From Acidimicrobiia bacterium (GTDB lineage Bacteria; Actinomycetota; Acidimicrobiia; IMCC26256; PALSA-555), in assembly GCA_035948415.1 (NCBI GenBank), contig DASZJD010000034.1, positions 1 to 64,000 on the forward strand: a stretch of DNA of 64,000 nucleotides, in the 5' to 3' direction. Under the pieces are notes generated by a model. It was not told the DNA's origin. It saw only the letters and a list, made by a program, of their open reading frames with translations, and ran no database searches. Position 1 is the first letter of the stretch; each line of letters starts with the position of its first letter. A program made the translations under genes and the position numbers. Shown piece after piece: positions 30,995 to 44,631 of this stretch.

Positions 30995-31642
30995 CGTGCC
31001 CGCGACCGCGGCTTCGTCGACGAGCCACACCACGCGGGGGGCCCGCACCCGGGCCGCGGGGAGGTCCTCGCCGCGCCGCACGGCGGCCAGGGCGTCGCGC
31101 TTGTCGGCGCCGGCCACGGTGAACACGACGAGCCCGGCTCGGGCGAGCCCCGGGTAGGTGAGCGTCAGCCGCTCGTGCGGGTGCTGGTCGTCGCCGGTGG
31201 CGACGACGAGCCGCTCCTGCTCCTCGAGGGTCGGAGAGGCGGGAAACAGCGACGCCGTGTGCCCGTCGGGTCCCAGCCCGAGGTGCACGAGCGCGATCGG
31301 CGGCGAGCGCCGGATCAGCTCGTCGTAGGCGGCGGCGGCGCGCTCGGGGGTCGGGCCCGCGAGACGCATCGAGTGGACGGCTCGCGGCTCGACCTCGTCG
31401 AGGAACGTCACGCGGGCCATGCCCTCGTTCGAGTCCGGGTCGTGCACCGGCACCCACCGCTCGTCGCCGAAGTACGCGTCGACGCCGGACCAGTCGACGG
31501 GAGCGGTGGCGAGCAGCTCGTAGCAGGCGCGCGCCGTGCCGCCGCCCGAGAGCGCGACCGAGGCCGGAGCCTCGGCGGCGACGAGCTCGGCGAACGCCGG
31601 CGGGACGTGAGCCACGCGGCGCTCCTCGCCGAAGAGGGTCAC
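30992..31642 (-). CDS. pgl: 6-phosphogluconolactonase
   Basis: Enzyme of 216 residues hydrolysing 6-phosphogluconolactone, second step of the oxidative pentose phosphate pathway. Motifs of the DevB/Pgl family: SVALSGGGTARACYELL, VDAYFGDERWVPVHDPDSNEGM and LGLGPDGHTASLFP. The GTG at 31642 overlaps the zwf stop by 4 bases, so Pgl is made coupled to glucose-6-phosphate dehydrogenase. No opcA lies between them, unlike many actinobacteria. Confidence 0.95.
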   Translation of the reverse strand: MTLFGEERRVAHVPPAFAELVAAEAPASVALSGGGTARACYELLATAPVDWSGVDAYFGDERWVPVHDPDSNEGMARVTFLDEVEPRAVHSMRLAGPTPERAAAAYDELIRRSPPIALVHLGLGPDGHTASLFPASPTLEEQERLVVATGDDQHPHERLTLTYPGLARAGLVVFTVAGADKRDALAAVRRGEDLPAARVRAPRVVWLVDEAAVAGT

Positions 31643-34336: not shown

Positions 34337-35431
34337 TCAGGAGACCTCGGCCCGTCGCTTCTCGAGGGTCTGGAACGCGTCGTGGAAGCTTGTCGAGAAC
34401 GACGCGACGCCCTCGCGCTCGAGGGTCGCGGTGACGTCGTCGAAGTCGACGCCGGCCTCGGCCAGCCCGGTGATGACGGCGTGCGCGCCCTCGACGTCCT
34501 CCTGGACCGTGTCGGGTCGCAGGTTGGCGTCGCCGCCGTGCAGCGCGTCGATGGACGCGGGCGCCAGCGTGTTGACGGTGTCCCGCCCGATCAGCTCGTC
34601 GATGTACAGGGTGGGGGAGTACGCGGGGTTCTTCGTGGACGTCGACGCCCACAGGGGCCGCTGGAGCCGTGCCCCCTTGGCCGCGAGCGCGTCCCAGCGG
34701 GCGCCGGCGAAGCGCTGCCGGAACAGCTCGTAGGCGAGCTTGGCGTTCGCGACCGCGGCCTTGCCGCGCAGCGGGTGCCCCTCGGGCAGGCGCCGGTCGG
34801 TCTCGGTGTCCACGCGGCTGACGAAGAACGACGCCACCGAGGAGACGCCGCCGGGGTCGCCACCGGCGGCGAGGAGCCGCTCGAGGCCGCGCAGGTAGGC
34901 GTCGATCACCGCCGCGTAGCGATCCAACGAGAAGATCAGCGTGATGTTCGTGTTGATGCCGGCGGCGAGGTTCGCCTCGATGGCGGGGATGCCCTCGACG
35001 GTTGCCGGGATCTTGATCATTACGTTGGGACGACCGACCCGCTCGTGGAGCGAGCGGGCCTGGGCGATCGACTCGTCGGTGTCGTGCGCGAGGTCGGGCG
35101 AGACTTCGACCGACACGAACCCGTCGGCCCGGCTCGTGGCGTCGTAGACGGGGGCGAGCACGTCGGCGGCGAGGCCGACGTCGTCGAGCACCAGCCGCCA
35201 GTACGAATCCTCGATGCTGAGGCCGGCGGCCGCGTCCGCCTTGAGCTCGTCGTCGTACCCCGCGCCCGCTCCGATCGCCTTCTCGAAGATCGTGGGGTTC
35301 GAGGTGACGCCGCGGATGCCGTCCTCGTCGATGAGACGCTGGAGGCCGCCGCCGGTGATGAGCGGGCGGCTGAGGTTGTCGCACCACGGGCTCTGCCCGA
35401 AGTCGTGGAGCCGGGCGATGGCACTGGTCAT
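34337..35431 (-). CDS. tal: Transaldolase
   Basis: Non-oxidative pentose phosphate enzyme of 364 residues, the long actinobacterial type. Schiff-base lysine is K140 in VMIKIPATVEG; other family segments are GVTSNPTIFEKAI (41-53) and GINTNITLIFSLDRY. The ATG overlaps the tkt stop by 4 bases. Convergent with the glycosylase fusion, separated by a hairpin. In many actinobacteria pgi or zwf follows tal directly; here the inserted fusion gene breaks that order. Confidence 0.96.
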   Translation of the reverse strand: MTSAIARLHDFGQSPWCDNLSRPLITGGGLQRLIDEDGIRGVTSNPTIFEKAIGAGAGYDDELKADAAAGLSIEDSYWRLVLDDVGLAADVLAPVYDATSRADGFVSVEVSPDLAHDTDESIAQARSLHERVGRPNVMIKIPATVEGIPAIEANLAAGINTNITLIFSLDRYAAVIDAYLRGLERLLAAGGDPGGVSSVASFFVSRVDTETDRRLPEGHPLRGKAAVANAKLAYELFRQRFAGARWDALAAKGARLQRPLWASTSTKNPAYSPTLYIDELIGRDTVNTLAPASIDALHGGDANLRPDTVQEDVEGAHAVITGLAEAGVDFDDVTATLEREGVASFSTSFHDAFQTLEKRRAEVS

Positions 35432-37431
35432 CGGCTTCCTCCTGCGGTTCGGTCGAGGAGCGCGTGCGCGCGCGCTACGACGTGGTCAGGGTTGATCCCC
35501 AGCTCGGCCAACGCGGTCGCACCGGGCGCGGAGCCGCCGAACCGGTCGATGCCCACCACGTCGTCGACCCAGCGGTCCCACCCGAAGGTGGCCGCGGCCT
35601 CGACCGCGAGCTTCGGGACCGGCGGGGGCAGCACGTCGGCCCGGTAGGCGTCCGACTGGGCCCCGAAGAGGTCCCAGGACGGCATCGACACCACCCGGAC
35701 CGACAGCCCGTCGGCGCGCAGCTGCTCGCGTGCCGCGACGCACACCGCGACCTCCGAGCCGGTGCCGACCAGCACCAGGTCGCACCGCCCCGAGTCCTCG
35801 TCGACGAGGGTGTAGGCGCCGCGGGCCACGCCGTCCGGCGCGCGCTCCGCGGTGCCGTCGAGCACGGGGACCTTCTGGCGGGTGAGGATCAGGGCCGTGG
35901 GCCCGCGATCGCTGTCCACGTGGACCTGCCACGCCTGCGCGACCTCGTTGGCGTCCGCGGGCCGGATCATGCGCATGTCCGGCATGGCCCGGAACGCCGC
36001 CAGCTGCTCGATCGGCTGATGGGTGGGACCGTCCTCACCGAGGCCGACCGAATCGTGCGTCCAGACGAAGGCGGTCCGGTACCCGGACAGGGCGGCGAGT
36101 CGCGCCGCCGCGCGCATGTAGTCGGAGAACACGAAGAAGGTCCCGCCCGCCGGCAGGAGCCCCGAGACCGACATGCCGTTCAGGACGCCGCCCATCCCGA
36201 ACTCGCGGATCCCGAAGCGGAGCTGGCGGCCCCCGAACTGGTGGGTGGCGACGATCGCCTCGTTGGCGAGCTCGGTCCCGGTGTTGCCGGACAGGTCGGC
36301 CCCGCCGCACACGATCCCGGGCACGACGTCGACGATGGCGTCGAGCACCTGCTTGCTGGCGGCACGGGTCGCGATCGAGTCGCCGGCGGTGAACGACGGC
36401 AGCTTCGCCTCCCACCCGGGGAGGCCGCGCTGCTCGAGGCAGGCGTCGAACTCCTCGGCCAGCTCGGGCTCGCGGGTCCGGAGGGCGAGGTGCCGCGCCT
36501 CCCACGCCTCCCGGTCGGGCCGGCCGCGCCGACCCGCCTCCCGGTAGGCGGCGAGCACGTCGTCGGGGACCCAGAACGTCTCGTCGGGTGGAAGCCCGAG
36601 GATGTCCTTCACCACGCGCACCTCGTCCTCGCCCAGCGGGCTGCCGTGGGCGTGCGCGGTGTCGGTGTACTTCGGCGACGGCCAGCCGATGTGGCTGCGC
36701 AGGATGACCAGGCTCGGCTTCTCGGGCTCGGTCATCGCGTCTCGGAGGCCCCGCTCGAGCGCGTCGACGTCGTTGGCGGCCTCGCCGAGTCGCACCACGT
36801 GCCAGCCGTAGGCCTCGAAGCGGCGCGCCACGTCATCGCTGTACGCGAGCTCGGTGGGCCCGTCGATGCTGATGTGGTTGTCGTCGTACACGCACACGAG
36901 CCGGCCGAGGCCGAGATGGCCCGCCAGCGACGCCGACTCGTGGCTGATGCCCTCCTCGAAGTCCCCGTCGCTGGCGATGACGAACACCCGGTGGTCACAG
37001 ACCTCGGGCCCGTAGCGGGCGCGGAGGTTCGCCTCGGCCAGCGTGATGCCGACGCTGTTGGCGAAGCCCTGGCCGAGCGGCCCGGTGGTGACCTCGATGC
37101 CGGGCGCGGCGCGGTACTCCGGGTGCCCCGGGGTCCGTGACCCCCACTGGCGGAACAACCGCAGGTCGTCGAGGTCGAGCCCGAACCCGGTGAGATAGAG
37201 GAGGGCGTACAGGAGCATGGACGCGTGCCCGTTCGAGAGGACGAAGCGGTCTCGGTCGAACCAGTCCGGCGCGCCGGCGTCGTACCGCATCACCCGGGTG
37301 AAGAGGACGTGCGCCAGCGGGGCGAGGGCCATCGGCGTCCCGGGGTGCCCCGAGTTCGCACGCTGCACGGCGTCCATGGCCAGGCCGCGGATGACGTTGA
37401 TGCTCCGCTCGTCCAGGTCGGTCACCGGCAC
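35428..37431 (-). CDS. tkt: Transketolase
   Basis: Thiamine diphosphate enzyme of 667 residues. Seen: SGHPGTPMALAPLAHVLF at the start, the TPP/metal motif SDGDFEEGISHE...DDNHISIDG, and the pyrimidine domain with FGIREFGMGGVLNGM and THDSVGLGEDGPTHQPIEQL. Start GTG at 37431 is set by AAGGAGG 5 bases upstream; a 90-residue longer reading is out of character for the family. It heads tkt-tal. A candidate -10 (AATAGT, 37504-37509, minus) would give a leader of about 65 bases, so unlike most genes here it is not leaderless. Confidence 0.96.
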   Translation of the reverse strand: MPVTDLDERSINVIRGLAMDAVQRANSGHPGTPMALAPLAHVLFTRVMRYDAGAPDWFDRDRFVLSNGHASMLLYALLYLTGFGLDLDDLRLFRQWGSRTPGHPEYRAAPGIEVTTGPLGQGFANSVGITLAEANLRARYGPEVCDHRVFVIASDGDFEEGISHESASLAGHLGLGRLVCVYDDNHISIDGPTELAYSDDVARRFEAYGWHVVRLGEAANDVDALERGLRDAMTEPEKPSLVILRSHIGWPSPKYTDTAHAHGSPLGEDEVRVVKDILGLPPDETFWVPDDVLAAYREAGRRGRPDREAWEARHLALRTREPELAEEFDACLEQRGLPGWEAKLPSFTAGDSIATRAASKQVLDAIVDVVPGIVCGGADLSGNTGTELANEAIVATHQFGGRQLRFGIREFGMGGVLNGMSVSGLLPAGGTFFVFSDYMRAAARLAALSGYRTAFVWTHDSVGLGEDGPTHQPIEQLAAFRAMPDMRMIRPADANEVAQAWQVHVDSDRGPTALILTRQKVPVLDGTAERAPDGVARGAYTLVDEDSGRCDLVLVGTGSEVAVCVAAREQLRADGLSVRVVSMPSWDLFGAQSDAYRADVLPPPVPKLAVEAAATFGWDRWVDDVVGIDRFGGSAPGATALAELGINPDHVVARAHALLDRTAGGSR

Positions 37432-37436
37432 TCGTC

Positions 37437-37443
37437 CCTCCTT
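37437..37443 (-). promoter_or_regulatory. Strong Shine-Dalgarno site of tkt
   Basis: AAGGAGG on the minus strand, 5 bases before GTG at 37431; it decides the tkt start. Confidence 0.8.
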
Positions 37444-37558
37444 GCTCCGTCGGCTCGAGGTCGCCACGCCCGCCGGGTGCCGGCGCGAGCTCCGATCACC
37501 CCCACTATTGCGCGTCGCTCCTGGCCTCCCCGGGGGCGGCCCCGCGTCCGCGCCCCGG

Positions 37559-38698
37559 TCAGGAGAACAGGGCGAGGCTGGCCGTGAACCCGTGCAAGAA
37601 GTTGCGGCCGCCGACGGGGCCCAGCTCACCGGCGCAGAAGGCGCCGGCCAGCGGCACCGGCCCGAGCAGCTGGGCGACCACCCCGGAGTCATGGTCGGGG
37701 ACGCCGAACAGGTGCTGGCCGCGACCGTTGCAGGTGAAGAGGAGCGCTCCGTCGGCGGCGTGGCTGGCGAGGAGGGCGCGCAGGTCCTCGTCGGCGGCGA
37801 CCCCGTCCCGCACCTGGAACTGCAGGGTCTGGCCGACGTCCACGTGGTCGCCGACGGCGATGGCGCCGGCGTCCCGGTCGGCGCCGAGCACGCTGCGGAT
37901 CAGGAAGTCGCCGCGCTCGAACTCGACCTTGTGCTCGTCCACGACCAGTCCGACCTGGAGCCCGCCGCGCAGCAGGTCCCGGTCGGCTTCGGTGGCACCG
38001 GCGGCCAGCTCCTCGAGCCGGCGCAGCGCCGGCTGCCCGCCGAGCTCGACGATCACGTTCTGCTCGGCCCGCGTCACGGTGAACGGCTGCCCGATCGGCC
38101 GGCAGCCTTGGGACACCACCGTCTCGACGGTGGCGCCGTCGACGAAGACCCCGACGGCGCCGTCGGGGCGCACCTGGTGGTCGAGCACCAGCCGGTTGCC
38201 CCCGGGGTGGCCCGCGGCCGAGGCGAGCCCGCCGATCACGGCGAGCCCCGGGCGCTCCTCGTTCAACCGCCGGAGGAAGGCGTCGGCGGGGAACGTGAAC
38301 GGGTCGGCGAAGAGGATCAGGGTCGTGGCCGCGTCGACGTCCGGCGGCCAGCCCGTGACCGCGGCGCCGTCGGGGGTCTCCTCCAGGCGCAGCGCCACCG
38401 GGGTCAGCGTGGCGTCGGGGAGGTGGGCGGCGAACACGGAGAACGCGGGGCCGGCCTCGACCTCGTGGCTGCCGCCGATGATCCCGCCGGCGGTGCCGCC
38501 CACGAGCACCTGCGGCTCGAGCAGGTTCCGGAGCGCGTTGGCGGCGTCGTCGAGCGCACCGACGAAGTGCGCCGACGCGAAACACACCGCGAGGGTCGGG
38601 TCCTCGCCGTCGAGCTGCTCGATCACCTCGCCGGCAGCCTCACCGACCGCGTGCGCCGGGACCGGGTGGCACGACAGCGCGGACGCATAGCGGCGCAC
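37559..38698 (-). CDS. FIST domain protein (FIST_N and FIST_C)
   Basis: Predicted small-ligand sensor of 379 residues. The N-terminal half has LAVCFASAHFVGALDDAANAL and VLVGGTAGGIIGGSHEVE, the FIST_N core; the C-terminal half ends DGALLFTCNGRGQHLFG and PVPLAGAFCAGELGPVGGRNFLHGFTASLALF, the FIST_C signature. FIST domains usually accompany kinases or chemoreceptors and are thought to bind amino acids, but this protein stands alone. GTG 38698 follows TAGGTT by 6 bases. Divergent from a methyltransferase gene. Confidence 0.9.
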   Translation of the reverse strand: MRRYASALSCHPVPAHAVGEAAGEVIEQLDGEDPTLAVCFASAHFVGALDDAANALRNLLEPQVLVGGTAGGIIGGSHEVEAGPAFSVFAAHLPDATLTPVALRLEETPDGAAVTGWPPDVDAATTLILFADPFTFPADAFLRRLNEERPGLAVIGGLASAAGHPGGNRLVLDHQVRPDGAVGVFVDGATVETVVSQGCRPIGQPFTVTRAEQNVIVELGGQPALRRLEELAAGATEADRDLLRGGLQVGLVVDEHKVEFERGDFLIRSVLGADRDAGAIAVGDHVDVGQTLQFQVRDGVAADEDLRALLASHAADGALLFTCNGRGQHLFGVPDHDSGVVAQLLGPVPLAGAFCAGELGPVGGRNFLHGFTASLALFS

Positions 38699-39611: not shown

Positions 39612-40709
39612 TCAGTGGACCGGCGCGCCGCCGACCCAGGCGGCGCGGAGCGCCCCCGAGTCGGGATCGAGCGCGACGACATCTCCCCGAGCGCCGACCG
39701 CCAGGCGGCCGCGGTCCGACAGGTCGAGGAGGCCGGCCGGCACGGTGCTGGCGGCTCGGACCGCCCGCTCGAGCGGGACACCGAGGCCAACGAGGTTCGT
39801 CACCGCCGCGTCGAGGAGCGCGGTCGCGCCCGCCAGACGGCCGTCGGCGAGGCGCGCCGCGCCGTCGGTGCGCTGCACGGCACCGCCGACGGCGACCGCG
39901 TCGCTGACCAGCGCCACGTCGGCCTTGGTGGCGAGCACGATCCGGACGACGGTCGGATGGACGTGCACCAGGTCGGCGATGAGCGTCGGGGTGAGGCGCT
40001 CGTCGTCGAGGGCGGCGCCGACGAGTCCCGGGGCGCGGTGATGCAGTGGCCCCATCCCGTTGAACACGTGGGTGACGACGCGGGCGCCCGCGGCGGCGGC
40101 GGCGCGGGCGTCGGCGTCGCTGGCCTGTGAATGGCCGAGCGCCACGAGCACGCCCCGGCTCGCGAGCCACGACACCGCGGCCAGGCCGGGGTCGGCTTCG
40201 GGTGCGAGCGTGACCATCCGCACCTGGCCGGGGTGCGCGTCGAGGATCGCGCCGAGCCACGCCACGTCGGCCGGTCGGAGCAGGTCGACGCGGTGGGCGC
40301 CCGGGGCGCTCCCCAGGAATGGCCCCTCGAGGTGCGCGCCGAGCGGGGCCGCCGCGCCGGGCTCGGGCTCGACGCGGGCGGCCCGGAGCCGGCGAAGGGG
40401 CGCCTCGTAGGCGTCCAGGGGCGCGGAGACGAAGGTCGCGAGGTACGCGGTCACCCCGTGCTGCGCGAGGGAACGTCCGGCCCGCTCCCAACCGGGCGCG
40501 TCGGCGACGGCGAGGTCGACGTCGTCGACGCCGTTCAGCTGCAGGTCGACGAACGCCGGCGCGAGGACCGCCGGGCCGACGTCGGTCGCCCCCGATGGCG
40601 GCCGGCCCGTCCCGGTCTCGACGATGCACCCGTCCTCGATCGCCAGCCAGCCCGGCTGCGGGACGCCCGGCGGGCACAGCGCGTCGGAGCGGAGGACGCT
40701 CGCGGTCAT
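39612..40709 (-). CDS. nagA: N-acetylglucosamine-6-phosphate deacetylase
   Basis: Amidohydrolase of 365 residues removing acetate from GlcNAc-6-phosphate. Motifs in order: APAFVDLQLNGVDDVDL near the start (the usual HxH pattern is LQLNG here, as in NagA), GAHLEGPFL with the metal Glu, ALGHSQA, VTHVFNGMGPLHHR, and LVSDAVA with the catalytic Asp. ATG at 40709 overlaps the stop of the glycosyltransferase by 4 bases. Third gene of the GH84-GT2-nagA operon; no GlcNAc kinase or NagB is present locally, so the phosphorylated substrate must come from elsewhere. Confidence 0.92.
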   Translation of the reverse strand: MTASVLRSDALCPPGVPQPGWLAIEDGCIVETGTGRPPSGATDVGPAVLAPAFVDLQLNGVDDVDLAVADAPGWERAGRSLAQHGVTAYLATFVSAPLDAYEAPLRRLRAARVEPEPGAAAPLGAHLEGPFLGSAPGAHRVDLLRPADVAWLGAILDAHPGQVRMVTLAPEADPGLAAVSWLASRGVLVALGHSQASDADARAAAAAGARVVTHVFNGMGPLHHRAPGLVGAALDDERLTPTLIADLVHVHPTVVRIVLATKADVALVSDAVAVGGAVQRTDGAARLADGRLAGATALLDAAVTNLVGLGVPLERAVRAASTVPAGLLDLSDRGRLAVGARGDVVALDPDSGALRAAWVGGAPVH

Positions 40710-41419
40710 CGGGCGCGACGGCTGCCAGCCAGGGCCACGCGCAGGCGCACGAGCCCGACCAGCGTCCGGAGTGCCCGTCGCGTGATCGAGCTGCGTGACG
40801 GCCGTCGCTCGTTGACCGTGACCGGCAGCTCTTCGACGCGCAACCCCGCCCGCTCGGCGCGCAGGATCAGCTCGGTGTCGAACAGCTCCCCGTCGCACCG
40901 GGAGGCGCGAGCGATGGGCAGGATGAGCTCACGGTCCATCGCCTTCATGCCGTGCGTGTCGGTTCGGCGGAGCCCGAAACCCACGCGCAGGACCAGCGCG
41001 AAGCCCCAGGTCACGACGCGCCGGATCCGGGAGCGGCGGTCCTGCGAGCCCGGTGCTCGCTTCGAGCCGACGATGATGGCCGGCGGGTCCGGCTCGCCGA
41101 ACCGCAGGAGCACCGCGTCGAGGAACCCGAGATCGGTGTAGTCGACGTCGAAGTTCACGACGACGTCGCCGGTCGCGGCGAACAGCCCGGTCCGGAGGGC
41201 GAGGCCGTAGTCGGCTCGCGGGAGTTGGCGCGCGACCACCTCGGGCGCTTCGTGGGCGAGGCGCTCGACGACGTCCGGGGTGGAGTCCTGCGAGCCGTTC
41301 TCGACCACGATGAGCTCGAACGGCGTCGACCGAGCGCGGAGCCCGTCGAGGACCTCGTGGACCGAGTCCGAGAGCAGCGCCGCCTCGTTGTGAGCCGGCA
41401 TGACGACGGTCAGCCTCAC
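40706..41419 (-). CDS. Family 2 glycosyltransferase, DPM1-like
   Basis: GT-A glycosyltransferase of 237 residues. It begins VRLTVVMPAHNEAALL, with LIVVENGSQDSTPDVV and the DVVVNFDVDYTD segment in place of the DxD region; THGMKAMDRELILPI and FDTELILRAERAGLRVEELPV fit the DPM1/polyprenyl-phosphate branch. No membrane domain is attached. GTG 41419 overlaps the GH84 stop by 4 bases and its own stop overlaps nagA, so the three are co-translated. Donor and acceptor are not known; a polyprenyl-phosphate or glycolipid acceptor is possible. Confidence 0.87.
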   Translation of the reverse strand: MRLTVVMPAHNEAALLSDSVHEVLDGLRARSTPFELIVVENGSQDSTPDVVERLAHEAPEVVARQLPRADYGLALRTGLFAATGDVVVNFDVDYTDLGFLDAVLLRFGEPDPPAIIVGSKRAPGSQDRRSRIRRVVTWGFALVLRVGFGLRRTDTHGMKAMDRELILPIARASRCDGELFDTELILRAERAGLRVEELPVTVNERRPSRSSITRRALRTLVGLVRLRVALAGSRRAR

Positions 41420-43014
41420 GAGAGCCGCGAATCGGGGAACGGCAGCTCGCCGGACGCGTCGACGCGAGTGCCGTGGCGCCCGCACTGGACGAGGACCACG
41501 GCGTCGGGGTCGGCGGCGAAGGAGCCGTCGGCCGCGACGGGGACCAGCTCCCAGCCTTGCCGCACCGTCACGGGCGCGTCATCGCCCGTCGCCCACTCGT
41601 GGTACTGGGCCAGCGCGATCCGGCAGAGGCGGTCGACCGCCGATCCGTCCTCACGGACGCCGAGATGAACGTCGAAGGCGGGGCTCCCGTCGGACCGCTG
41701 GACCACCGACGGGTGCAGCCCGAACCGCGGACCGCCCACGACCTTCGACGCCCGCCGGGCCGCCGTCCAGGCGAAGAGCAGCGCGAACGCGTGGATCATC
41801 GCCGATTCGGCGTCCGGGCCGACCGCACGCCCGCCGCCGGACGGCGCGCGGGACGCCACCGGCCGAACCTGCTGGAGCAGCCGCAACGCCGAGAGCGCGG
41901 CGTCGGCCTCCTGGGTGGCCTGCTCGAGCCACGGCGCCAGCTCGCCCGTGAGCGGATCGTCCGGCGCGTTCGCGAAGGCCCGGCGCGCGCCGCGGAGCGC
42001 CGTGAGCTCGTCGCGCAGCGGGACGACCCCGGCGGGCCAGGTGGCGTCGCCGACGTCCCGCTCGAGGTGGTCGACGAGCTCGTGCAGCTGGAGGTGCCTG
42101 GGCACCATGAGCGGCCCGTCGGCGCACGCGCGCGCCAGCGCGCCGAGCGCGGCGGACCGCACGCCGCCCACGTCGTCGATCGCGCGCCGCCAGGCGTCGT
42201 CCGCGTCGTAGGCGCTGGGATCCCGCAGGTAGGCGGCCGCGGTCGCCAGCGGGACCTTCGAGGCGTGCGCCTGCAGCATCGGGTTGCACAGCACACCGTC
42301 GAGCTCGTCGCTGAGCCCCGGCGTCCGCCCTCGGTACGGGCCCAGGTGCAACTCGGCCTCCATCATCGCGTCGTTCACCGGATAGTTGTCCCACAGGACG
42401 AGGGGACGTCCGCCGAGCGCGGCCCGCCAGGCCCGCGCGTCGACGGCGTCGATCCTCGGCGAGCACACCGTCGGCCCCGTCCACATGACGTCGACGTCGG
42501 CCGGCAGCCCCGACGCCAGCTCCGCGAGGTACGGGCTCGGTCGGGTGCCCACGTACTCGGTCGGGACGAGCGTCAGGCGGCCCGGGACGTGCGGCGCCAG
42601 CCAGCGCACCAGCGCCACCTGCTCGGCGGCCAGGCCGGGCCGGTTCGGGATGTCGTCGAGCGCCAGGACCACCCAGTCGACCCCCTCGCCGAGGAGCGGG
42701 CGCAGCTTGGCGACGAGCGCCGCCCGGTCGGCGTCGTCGCCGTACGCGATGTCGAGGCCGGGCGAGATCGCGAATCCGAAGCGCACCCCGACCGCCCGGC
42801 ACGCGGCCGCGAGGTCGACCAGGTTGGCGGCGTCGGCCGCGTCGTAGGGCTCGCGCCAGGACTCCCGGTGACGCGGGTCGCTCTTCGGCGCGTACACGTA
42901 GGCGTTCATGTCCCGCTCGGCGACGAACTCGATGAGGTCTCGGCGCGCGTCGTGCGACCAGGGGGGACCATAGAAGCCCTCGATGACGCCTCGGAGGGCC
43001 ACCGGGCGAGGCAC
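41416..43014 (-). CDS. GH84 beta-N-acetylglucosaminidase (O-GlcNAcase-like)
   Basis: Glycosidase of 532 residues. The TIM barrel starts GVIEGFYGPPWSHDARRD (9-26), a GH84 hallmark, followed by YVYAPKSDPRHRESWREPY; the catalytic acid pair is LALDDIP (Asp 120 and 121), with LWDNYPVND (about 207-215) at the substrate pocket. GH84 uses the substrate acetamido group as nucleophile to release GlcNAc. There is no signal peptide or membrane segment, so it should work in the cytoplasm. GTG at 43014, leaderless from TAGCCT. First gene of the operon with GT2 and nagA. Confidence 0.92.
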   Translation of the reverse strand: MPRPVALRGVIEGFYGPPWSHDARRDLIEFVAERDMNAYVYAPKSDPRHRESWREPYDAADAANLVDLAAACRAVGVRFGFAISPGLDIAYGDDADRAALVAKLRPLLGEGVDWVVLALDDIPNRPGLAAEQVALVRWLAPHVPGRLTLVPTEYVGTRPSPYLAELASGLPADVDVMWTGPTVCSPRIDAVDARAWRAALGGRPLVLWDNYPVNDAMMEAELHLGPYRGRTPGLSDELDGVLCNPMLQAHASKVPLATAAAYLRDPSAYDADDAWRRAIDDVGGVRSAALGALARACADGPLMVPRHLQLHELVDHLERDVGDATWPAGVVPLRDELTALRGARRAFANAPDDPLTGELAPWLEQATQEADAALSALRLLQQVRPVASRAPSGGGRAVGPDAESAMIHAFALLFAWTAARRASKVVGGPRFGLHPSVVQRSDGSPAFDVHLGVREDGSAVDRLCRIALAQYHEWATGDDAPVTVRQGWELVPVAADGSFAADPDAVVLVQCGRHGTRVDASGELPFPDSRLS

Positions 43015-43020
43015 GACGGT

Positions 43021-43026
43021 AGGCTA
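43021..43026 (-). promoter_or_regulatory. -10 element of GH84 operon, overlapping a plus-strand -10
   Basis: TAGCCT on the minus strand, 6 bases before GTG at 43014. The same bases read TAGGCT on the plus strand at 43020-43025, so one short palindromic site could serve both divergent operons. Confidence 0.5.
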
Positions 43027-43080: not shown

Positions 43081-44631
43081 GTGCCCGACATCCTGGCGGC
43101 GCACGCGGTCGCGCGAGCCGACACGCCGGCGGTCATCGTCGACGTCGCCGGTGGCGCCCGACCGTCGGCGACGACGTTCGCGGCGCTGAACCGACTCGTG
43201 AACCAGGCCGCGCACGGCTTCGCGGCCGTCGGGGCCCGGCCCCGCGACCGGCTCGTCTGGTGCGGGCCGAACTCCCTCGAGGTCCTCGTCACCATTCACG
43301 CCGCGCGCAAGGCGTCCCTCACCGCGGTGCCGCTCTCCTACCGGTTCAACGCCGAGGAGATGGCGTACGTCATCGACAACTCCGACGCCACGATCGTCGT
43401 CGTCGACGCCGAGCAGGCCCCGCTGCTCGCGGAGGTCAGCCAGCGCCTGCCGAAGGTGCGCGCCTTCATCGTCTTCGGCGGCGAGGTGCCGCCCGGCTTC
43501 CACGCCTGGGACGAGGTCGTCTCCGGGCAGCCTGACGCGGAGCCTCGTATCGAGGTCCCGGAATCCGCGGGCGCGTCGATGATCTACACGTCGGGGACGA
43601 CCGGCCGCCCGAAGGGGGCGCTCCGCACGACGACCGACCCGGCCACGGTGCTGGCCCTGCTCGCCGAGCTCAACCTGCACCCGGGGGCCGAGGTCCACGT
43701 GACGACGGGCCCGCTCTACCACTCCGGCCCGCTGGCGTGGGCCACGCTGAACCACACGCTGGGCTGTCCCGTGGTGGTGCTCCGGAAGTTCGACCCGTCG
43801 GCGTGGCTGCGACTCGTGCGCGAGCACCGGGTCACGAACACCTTCTCGGCGCCGACCCAGCTGAAGCGAATCGTGAGCCTGCCGCCCGGGGAGCTGGCCC
43901 GCGCCGACCTGTCGTCGATGCGGAGCCTCGTGGCTGACGCCGCGCCGGTGCCGTTCGCGCTGAAGCAGGAGGTCATCGAGAAGCTGGGCGAGGGCTTTCT
44001 CTACGAGGTGTACGGCTCGACCGAGCTCGGGGTCGCGACCGTGCTGCACCCCGACGAGCAGCTCCGGAAGCCGGGGTCGTGTGGCCGGCCGTACGACAGC
44101 ATCGAGCTGCGGATCGTCGCCGACGACGGCTCCGACGCGCCCCCGGGCCAACCGGGGGAGCTGTTCATCCGAACCACCATCGGCATGGACGGCTACCACC
44201 GCACCGAGGAGCGGCTCAGCGCCCTCGACGAGGGCGAGTGGCAGTCGGTCGGGGACGTCGCCTACCTGGACGAGGAGGGCTACGTCTACATCTGCGACCG
44301 CAAGAAGGACATGATCATCTCCGGCGGCGTCAACATCTACCCGGCCGAGATCGAGGCCGCGCTCTACGAGCACCCGGACATCCTCGACGTCGCCGTCTTC
44401 GGCGTGCCCGACGACGAGTGGGGGGAGCGGGTCCACGCCGTCGTGCAGCCGAAGCCGGGCGCCAGCATCGACGTCGACGAGCTGCGCGGCTTCGCCGCCG
44501 AGCGCCTCGCCCGCTACAAGCAGCCGCGTGACTATGACCTGCGCGACGAGCTGCCTCGGACCGAGGCCGGCAAGCTCCTGAAGCGGGTGCTCCGCGACGA
44601 GCACTGGCGCGGCCGCGACCGCGCCGTCTGA
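43081..44631 (+). CDS. AMP-forming acyl-CoA synthetase (FadD-like)
   Basis: ANL-family ligase of 516 residues activating a carboxylic acid to acyl-CoA. P-loop-like SMIYTSGTTGRPKGA, A5 YGSTELGVAT, hinge DRKKDMIISGGVNIYPAEIE and the C-terminal catalytic Lys in RTEAGKLLKR are all present. The start at GTG 43081 is fixed by a GGAGGAG. It leads an operon with the split NDP-forming ligase (9 bases later). The acid specificity cannot be read; a medium or long chain is likely by family. Confidence 0.93.
   Translation: MPDILAAHAVARADTPAVIVDVAGGARPSATTFAALNRLVNQAAHGFAAVGARPRDRLVWCGPNSLEVLVTIHAARKASLTAVPLSYRFNAEEMAYVIDNSDATIVVVDAEQAPLLAEVSQRLPKVRAFIVFGGEVPPGFHAWDEVVSGQPDAEPRIEVPESAGASMIYTSGTTGRPKGALRTTTDPATVLALLAELNLHPGAEVHVTTGPLYHSGPLAWATLNHTLGCPVVVLRKFDPSAWLRLVREHRVTNTFSAPTQLKRIVSLPPGELARADLSSMRSLVADAAPVPFALKQEVIEKLGEGFLYEVYGSTELGVATVLHPDEQLRKPGSCGRPYDSIELRIVADDGSDAPPGQPGELFIRTTIGMDGYHRTEERLSALDEGEWQSVGDVAYLDEEGYVYICDRKKDMIISGGVNIYPAEIEAALYEHPDILDVAVFGVPDDEWGERVHAVVQPKPGASIDVDELRGFAAERLARYKQPRDYDLRDELPRTEAGKLLKRVLRDEHWRGRDRAV

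Follow-up and report, generated by a model that had tools for sequence, protein, structure and literature searches.

A conserved acidimicrobial operon of a cytosolic GH84 hydrolase, a GT2 glycosyltransferase and NagA, and its possible role in GlcNAc salvage

Bacterial cytosolic GH84s are often discussed as O-GlcNAcases. An operon that joins such an enzyme to a glycosyltransferase and a GlcNAc-6-phosphate deacetylase raises the question of whether the three products add, remove and recycle GlcNAc on an internal acceptor, or whether they do separate work. The operon considered here lies in a window of 64,000 nucleotides (the whole stretch of DNA that was analysed) from an Acidimicrobiia bacterium. 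Its three genes are all on the minus strand and encode a cytosolic GH84 beta-N-acetylglucosaminidase of 532 aa (41416..43014), a GT2 glycosyltransferase of 237 aa with a DPM1/ArnC-like catalytic domain (40706..41419) and the GlcNAc-6-phosphate deacetylase NagA, of 365 aa (39612..40709). The 4-base overlaps reported in a preliminary description are indeed present; these are GTGA at 41416-41419, between GH84 and GT2, and ATGA at 40706-40709, between GT2 and NagA. Synteny marks a conserved slot around the trio. Its left border is a divergent AMP-dependent acyl-CoA ligase on the plus strand (43081..44631; Pfam AMP-binding), which is probably outside the function, and its right border a FIST-domain protein on the minus strand (37559..38698; Pfam FIST and FIST_C), followed by a transketolase (35428-37605). 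The 6PGL-like gene of a pentose-phosphate cluster, the second PF01182 match, is at 31025-31597 in the window.

The hydrolase scores 294 bits against the Pfam NAGidase profile PF07555 (cut-off 25), which places it in family 84. Its best PDB match, both by sequence and by predicted fold (model pLDDT 90.6), is the O-GlcNAcase of Thermobaculum terrenum (5diy, TMt 0.83), and CpOGA–peptide complexes are among the closest fold matches. The T. terrenum enzyme works inside the cell and accepts O-GlcNAc substrates, although modified proteins were undetected in its host (PMC4683255). Across 16 GH84 orthologues the catalytic pair D120/D121, which aligns with D119/D120 of TtOGA, is invariant, as are K44, W208, N210, D215 and N244. 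Judged by family and by these intact catalytic residues, the protein is predicted to be a beta-N-acetylglucosaminidase. A signal peptide is impossible, because the reading frame opens just 3 codons 5' of the GTG at 43014 and then runs directly into the TIM barrel motif RGVIEGFYG; the slot orthologues likewise have none, within the limits of start-codon assignment. An intracellular enzyme of the O-GlcNAcase fold group, as first described, is therefore supported. A signal peptide in relatives had been named as the finding that would count against this, and the answer differs between the slot and the wider class: the slot orthologues appear to carry none, while a distant GH84 of the class (G070, L052:5063-6304) likely has a secretion signal in front, unlike the slot enzymes. 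It looks as if a secreted form also exists in the class, outside the slot subfamily.

NagA matches Pfam Amidohydro_1 at 42 bits and TIGR00221 (nagA) at 183 bits, the latter under the 226-bit equivalog cut-off, and its nearest PDB relatives are mycobacterial NagAs (6fv3). In 15 orthologues Q57/N59, E128, H139, H193, H214, N217, R225, H249 and D270 are invariant or nearly so; QxN is the first metal motif of NagA, and the metal, catalytic and 6-phosphate positions match those described for the mycobacterial enzyme, which does not act on unphosphorylated GlcNAc (PMC6016474). Since the 6-phosphate-binding positions are kept, a 6-phosphorylated substrate is expected, and a kinase is needed between GH84 and NagA.

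The operon itself contains no transporter, kinase, NagB or Msh gene. The initial remark that kinase and NagB are missing is right for the operon and does not extend to the genome, which encodes three ROK kinases and also a NagB-like protein; the latter is at G000:C109, next to a GH4, and scores 110 bits where the cut-off is 237. The ROK kinases score as glucokinase or polyphosphate glucokinase and none as NagK. One of them is a candidate GlcNAc kinase; it stands in contig C98 (L088:8059-11340), where a second G6PD homologue lies between a 6PGDH-like gene and the kinase. Neither a BadF-type GlcNAc kinase nor MurQ was found in this genome, and MurNAc recycling was rejected for want of MurQ. GH20 and NagZ-like GH3 enzymes were also not found there; the one GH3 present is beta-glucosidase-like, which leaves GH84 as the sole evident beta-GlcNAcase among these families.

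The explanation that we favour, and consider probable, is that GH84 and NagA together salvage GlcNAc in the cytosol, and that GT2, an envelope enzyme independent of them, shares their transcript. A conserved leaderless promoter would drive up to three genes with separable jobs. GH84, acting as a cytosolic retaining beta-GlcNAc hydrolase, would free GlcNAc from a beta-GlcNAc conjugate, either imported or endogenous. The sugar would be phosphorylated by a kinase encoded elsewhere, perhaps a ROK enzyme, and NagA would then convert GlcNAc-6-P to GlcN-6-P, which may be re-used in UDP-GlcNAc and peptidoglycan synthesis, or catabolised. GT2 would be a core envelope enzyme carried in the same transcript. 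Salvage is preferred because the orthologues keep the catalytic residues of both GH84 and NagA, because the nearest relative of GH84 is an intracellular and biochemically active bacterial O-GlcNAcase, and because NagA keeps its 6-phosphate positions and is usually present where GH84 is. The short cytosolic GH84s of Microbacteriaceae, which sit in a catabolic setting, suggest the same by analogy. Several observations weigh against salvage: the lack of BadF and the glucokinase-like scores of the ROK proteins, the lack of an operon transporter, the sub-threshold score of NagA against TIGR00221, and a GH84–NagA association that is not significant on independent pairs (below). The 4-base overlaps across the trio could also reflect a functional coupling stronger than salvage allows.

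The independence of GT2 is argued by its fold, its neighbours and its retention. The protein matches Pfam Glycos_transf_2 at 65 bits, and every NCBIfam equivalog score is far under its cut-off. The top Foldseek matches of its AlphaFold model (pLDDT 87) are ArnC, DPMS and GtrB (TMq about 0.7-0.76, at ~19% identity), in keeping with a GT-A fold; no transmembrane segment is evident, and a C-terminal helix ends the protein. From this resemblance GT2 probably makes a polyprenyl-phosphate sugar, with mannose or another hexose the likeliest sugar. In two relatives in the class (G063 and G075) its gene adjoins the phosphomannomutase gene manB, phosphomannose isomerase (phosphoglucose/phosphomannose isomerase) and a 730-residue protein that matches no Pfam family. 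Nearly all genomes of the class have GT2, whether GH84 is there or not, and it is retained in 1.1-Mb genomes that lack both GH84 and NagA; it belongs to the old core genes of the class. Beside GT2 at L083:9357-11546 and L084:9212-11407 are membrane-like proteins of ~730 aa with no Pfam or NCBIfam match, possibly GT-C partners that use the GT2 product.

Comparison of the slot between genomes separates the three genes further. All three occupy one chromosomal slot, from the divergent acyl-CoA ligase to FIST-transketolase-transaldolase, and the gene order is kept across several families of the order; most GH84-bearing genomes have all three slot genes, in the trio order. Other genomes keep only parts of the set. 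Nine have GT2 and NagA only, seven have GT2 alone and three (G005, G007 and G073) have NagA alone; G003 has GH84 and NagA without GT2, G017 has GH84 and GT2 without NagA, and G085 has GH84 alone. The assemblies are drafts, and a missing gene can also be a contig end, as in G053. On a six-gene tree these patterns require at least nine changes for GH84, five for NagA and four for GT2. GH84 is the most labile member of the trio, and the separate loss of the slot genes suggests that their products do separable jobs. As part of the favoured explanation, the slot probably belongs to the vertically inherited Acidimicrobiia chromosome. A record titled as a Bifidobacterium breve MAG (L102, CAMBEL010000007.1) carries the acidimicrobial slot and is likely mislabelled. 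The question first posed, whether the three genes co-occur elsewhere, thus has a divided answer: the order is kept in many relatives, and its parts are lost separately.

Within the order, GT2 is present in 19 of 21 genomes with GH84 and in 28 of 37 without it, which is no association (Fisher p=0.30) and counts against GT2 as a partner of GH84. NagA is present in 19/21 genomes with GH84 against 18/37 without (Fisher p=0.002, uncorrected for phylogeny); on phylogenetically independent pairs the association is not significant (median p=1), and statistical co-evolution of GH84 and NagA is hence not claimed. The preliminary description had seen in GT2 the hydrolase's own transferase, completing a GlcNAc cycle. 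The intracellular GH84 in an operon with GT2 and NagA is shared by many relatives, but the cycle is not supported, since GT2 occurs almost class-wide regardless of GH84 and the genes are lost separately.

A short element in front of the operon accompanies these rearrangements. The sequence TAGCCTAC (43019..43026, minus strand) occurs once in the window, against 0.12 occurrences expected by shuffling. It includes TAGCCTA, which ends 5 nt 5' of the start codon; in 959 kb of loci, 21 of the 22 occurrences of TAGCCTA are at the front of this operon. In TAGCCTACC, TAGCCT falls at -12 to -7 relative to the start codon of the first gene, here the GTG of GH84. A -10 box of a leaderless transcript would lie at this distance, and the element is read as a putative box of that kind. 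In some GH84 loci it varies, for example as TAGCGTA or TACCCTA. The element precedes whichever gene comes first, namely GH84 here and in relatives, GT2 elsewhere and NagA in G005 and G007, and it is this that suggests that GH84 can drop out with the promoter and the downstream genes staying in place. A palindromic operator reading of GGTAGCCTACC was rejected; its left arm is not conserved, and a -10 box is simpler. The conservation of TAGCCTACC is near-exact, almost confined to this operon front and tighter than is usual for a -10 box; it may be a specific site of a promoter or regulator.

Several other readings of the operon can be weighed against salvage. In one, GH84 and GT2 are a writer–eraser pair that acts on an internal protein, and NagA recycles the GlcNAc set free. 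In favour of it are the O-GlcNAcase fold of GH84 and its likeness to the CpOGA–peptide complexes, and also the seemingly soluble GT2 that overlaps GH84; the GT2 profile even reaches weakly (E 1e-7) to GmaR, a flagellin GlcNAc transferase of GT2 type. Yet GT2 is widespread without GH84, G003 has GH84 and NagA without GT2, and GT2 fits the lipid-phosphate sugar synthases. An O-GlcNAc cycle calls for an intracellular GH84, which is present, and for a GT41 in the genome, which is not: no GT41 OGT (PF13844) occurs in this genome or in any of the 62 genomes searched. An O-GlcNAc-type cycle is thus left without a credible writer, and we hold the pair to be improbable. Just as improbable is a cycle of new composition, in which a soluble GT2 would attach beta-GlcNAc to an internal acceptor, a protein or something else, GH84 would remove it and NagA would recycle it, all from one leaderless operon. 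Somewhat less strained, but still unlikely, is a role of GH84 in trimming or proofreading some glycan or lipid built with the GT2 product, so that both act on the same envelope polymer. The operon overlap and an order conserved in several families agree with this, but GT2 stays in place where GH84 is missing time after time, the two are not associated, and GH84 lacks an export signal whereas assembly from such lipid donors normally takes place outside the membrane.

More room is left for a specific role of GH84 in peptidoglycan recycling, in place of NagZ, where NagA would put the GlcNAc back to use. We regard this as possible but doubtful; it is a narrower form of salvage and compatible with it. 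NagZ-like GH3 and GH20 are missing from the genome, a DacB-type PBP4 stays syntenic, and mycobacterial NagA serves amino-sugar recycling from peptidoglycan (PMC12617635); on the other hand, there is no MurQ in the genome, no importer was identified, and DacB is on the other strand, outside the operon. Recycling of mycothiol or a GlcNAc-inositol conjugate, which the preliminary description had also offered, is extremely improbable. An MshA-like glycosyltransferase is encoded elsewhere in the genome (412 bits, below the 462.5 cut-off), but the operon has no Msh gene and NagA needs a 6-phosphate. Mycothiol is an alpha-glycoside, its GlcNAc-inositol linkage being alpha, whereas GH84 enzymes are retaining and cleave beta-glycosides, and the proposal was rejected on this difference in anomeric configuration.

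The neighbourhood is thus real and well conserved, and its enzyme families are ordinary. The gene set appears to be undescribed, as initially supposed: nothing relevant to a GH84–NagA operon was found in the open-licence literature searched. Here comparative genomics pairs GH84 with NagA and parts it from its GT2 neighbour, pointing to salvage. If an assay bore salvage out, the annotation of many bacterial 'O-GlcNAcases' or 'hyaluronidases' could be changed to GlcNAc salvage, and GH84 would serve as another hexosaminidase in an actinobacterial group that has neither NagZ nor GH20.

Each component resembles a known system and departs from it. Like the T. terrenum OGA (5diy), the slot GH84 is a short intracellular enzyme with a TIM barrel, a helical domain and a catalytic DD pair, but it shares an operon with GT2 and NagA and its C-terminal part is longer; T. 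terrenum has a GT41 OGT as well, and none was found with the slot GH84. The slot NagA belongs to the same amidohydrolase family as mycobacterial NagA (6fv3) and has the same substrate-binding positions; at the first metal motif it has the QxN of E. coli and V. cholerae rather than HxH, and no nagB or kinase gene is nearby. DPMS, ArnC and GtrB share the GT-A fold of GT2 and are its best structural matches, from which it differs in having no evident transmembrane segments and in an identity of about 19%. The GH84s of Microbacteriaceae (Salinibacterium, Microbacterium) are likewise short, without a signal peptide and found in a sugar-use setting, with ABC transporters, an SIS isomerase and one BadF kinase in their loci where the slot operon has NagA and GT2 instead. 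Cytosolic GH84s in catabolic-looking loci were seen at L107, L114, L117, L119 and L128, several with a SIS_2 isomerase directly upstream, with a sugar ABC transporter nearby and, near one of them, a homologue of the BadF GlcNAc kinase.
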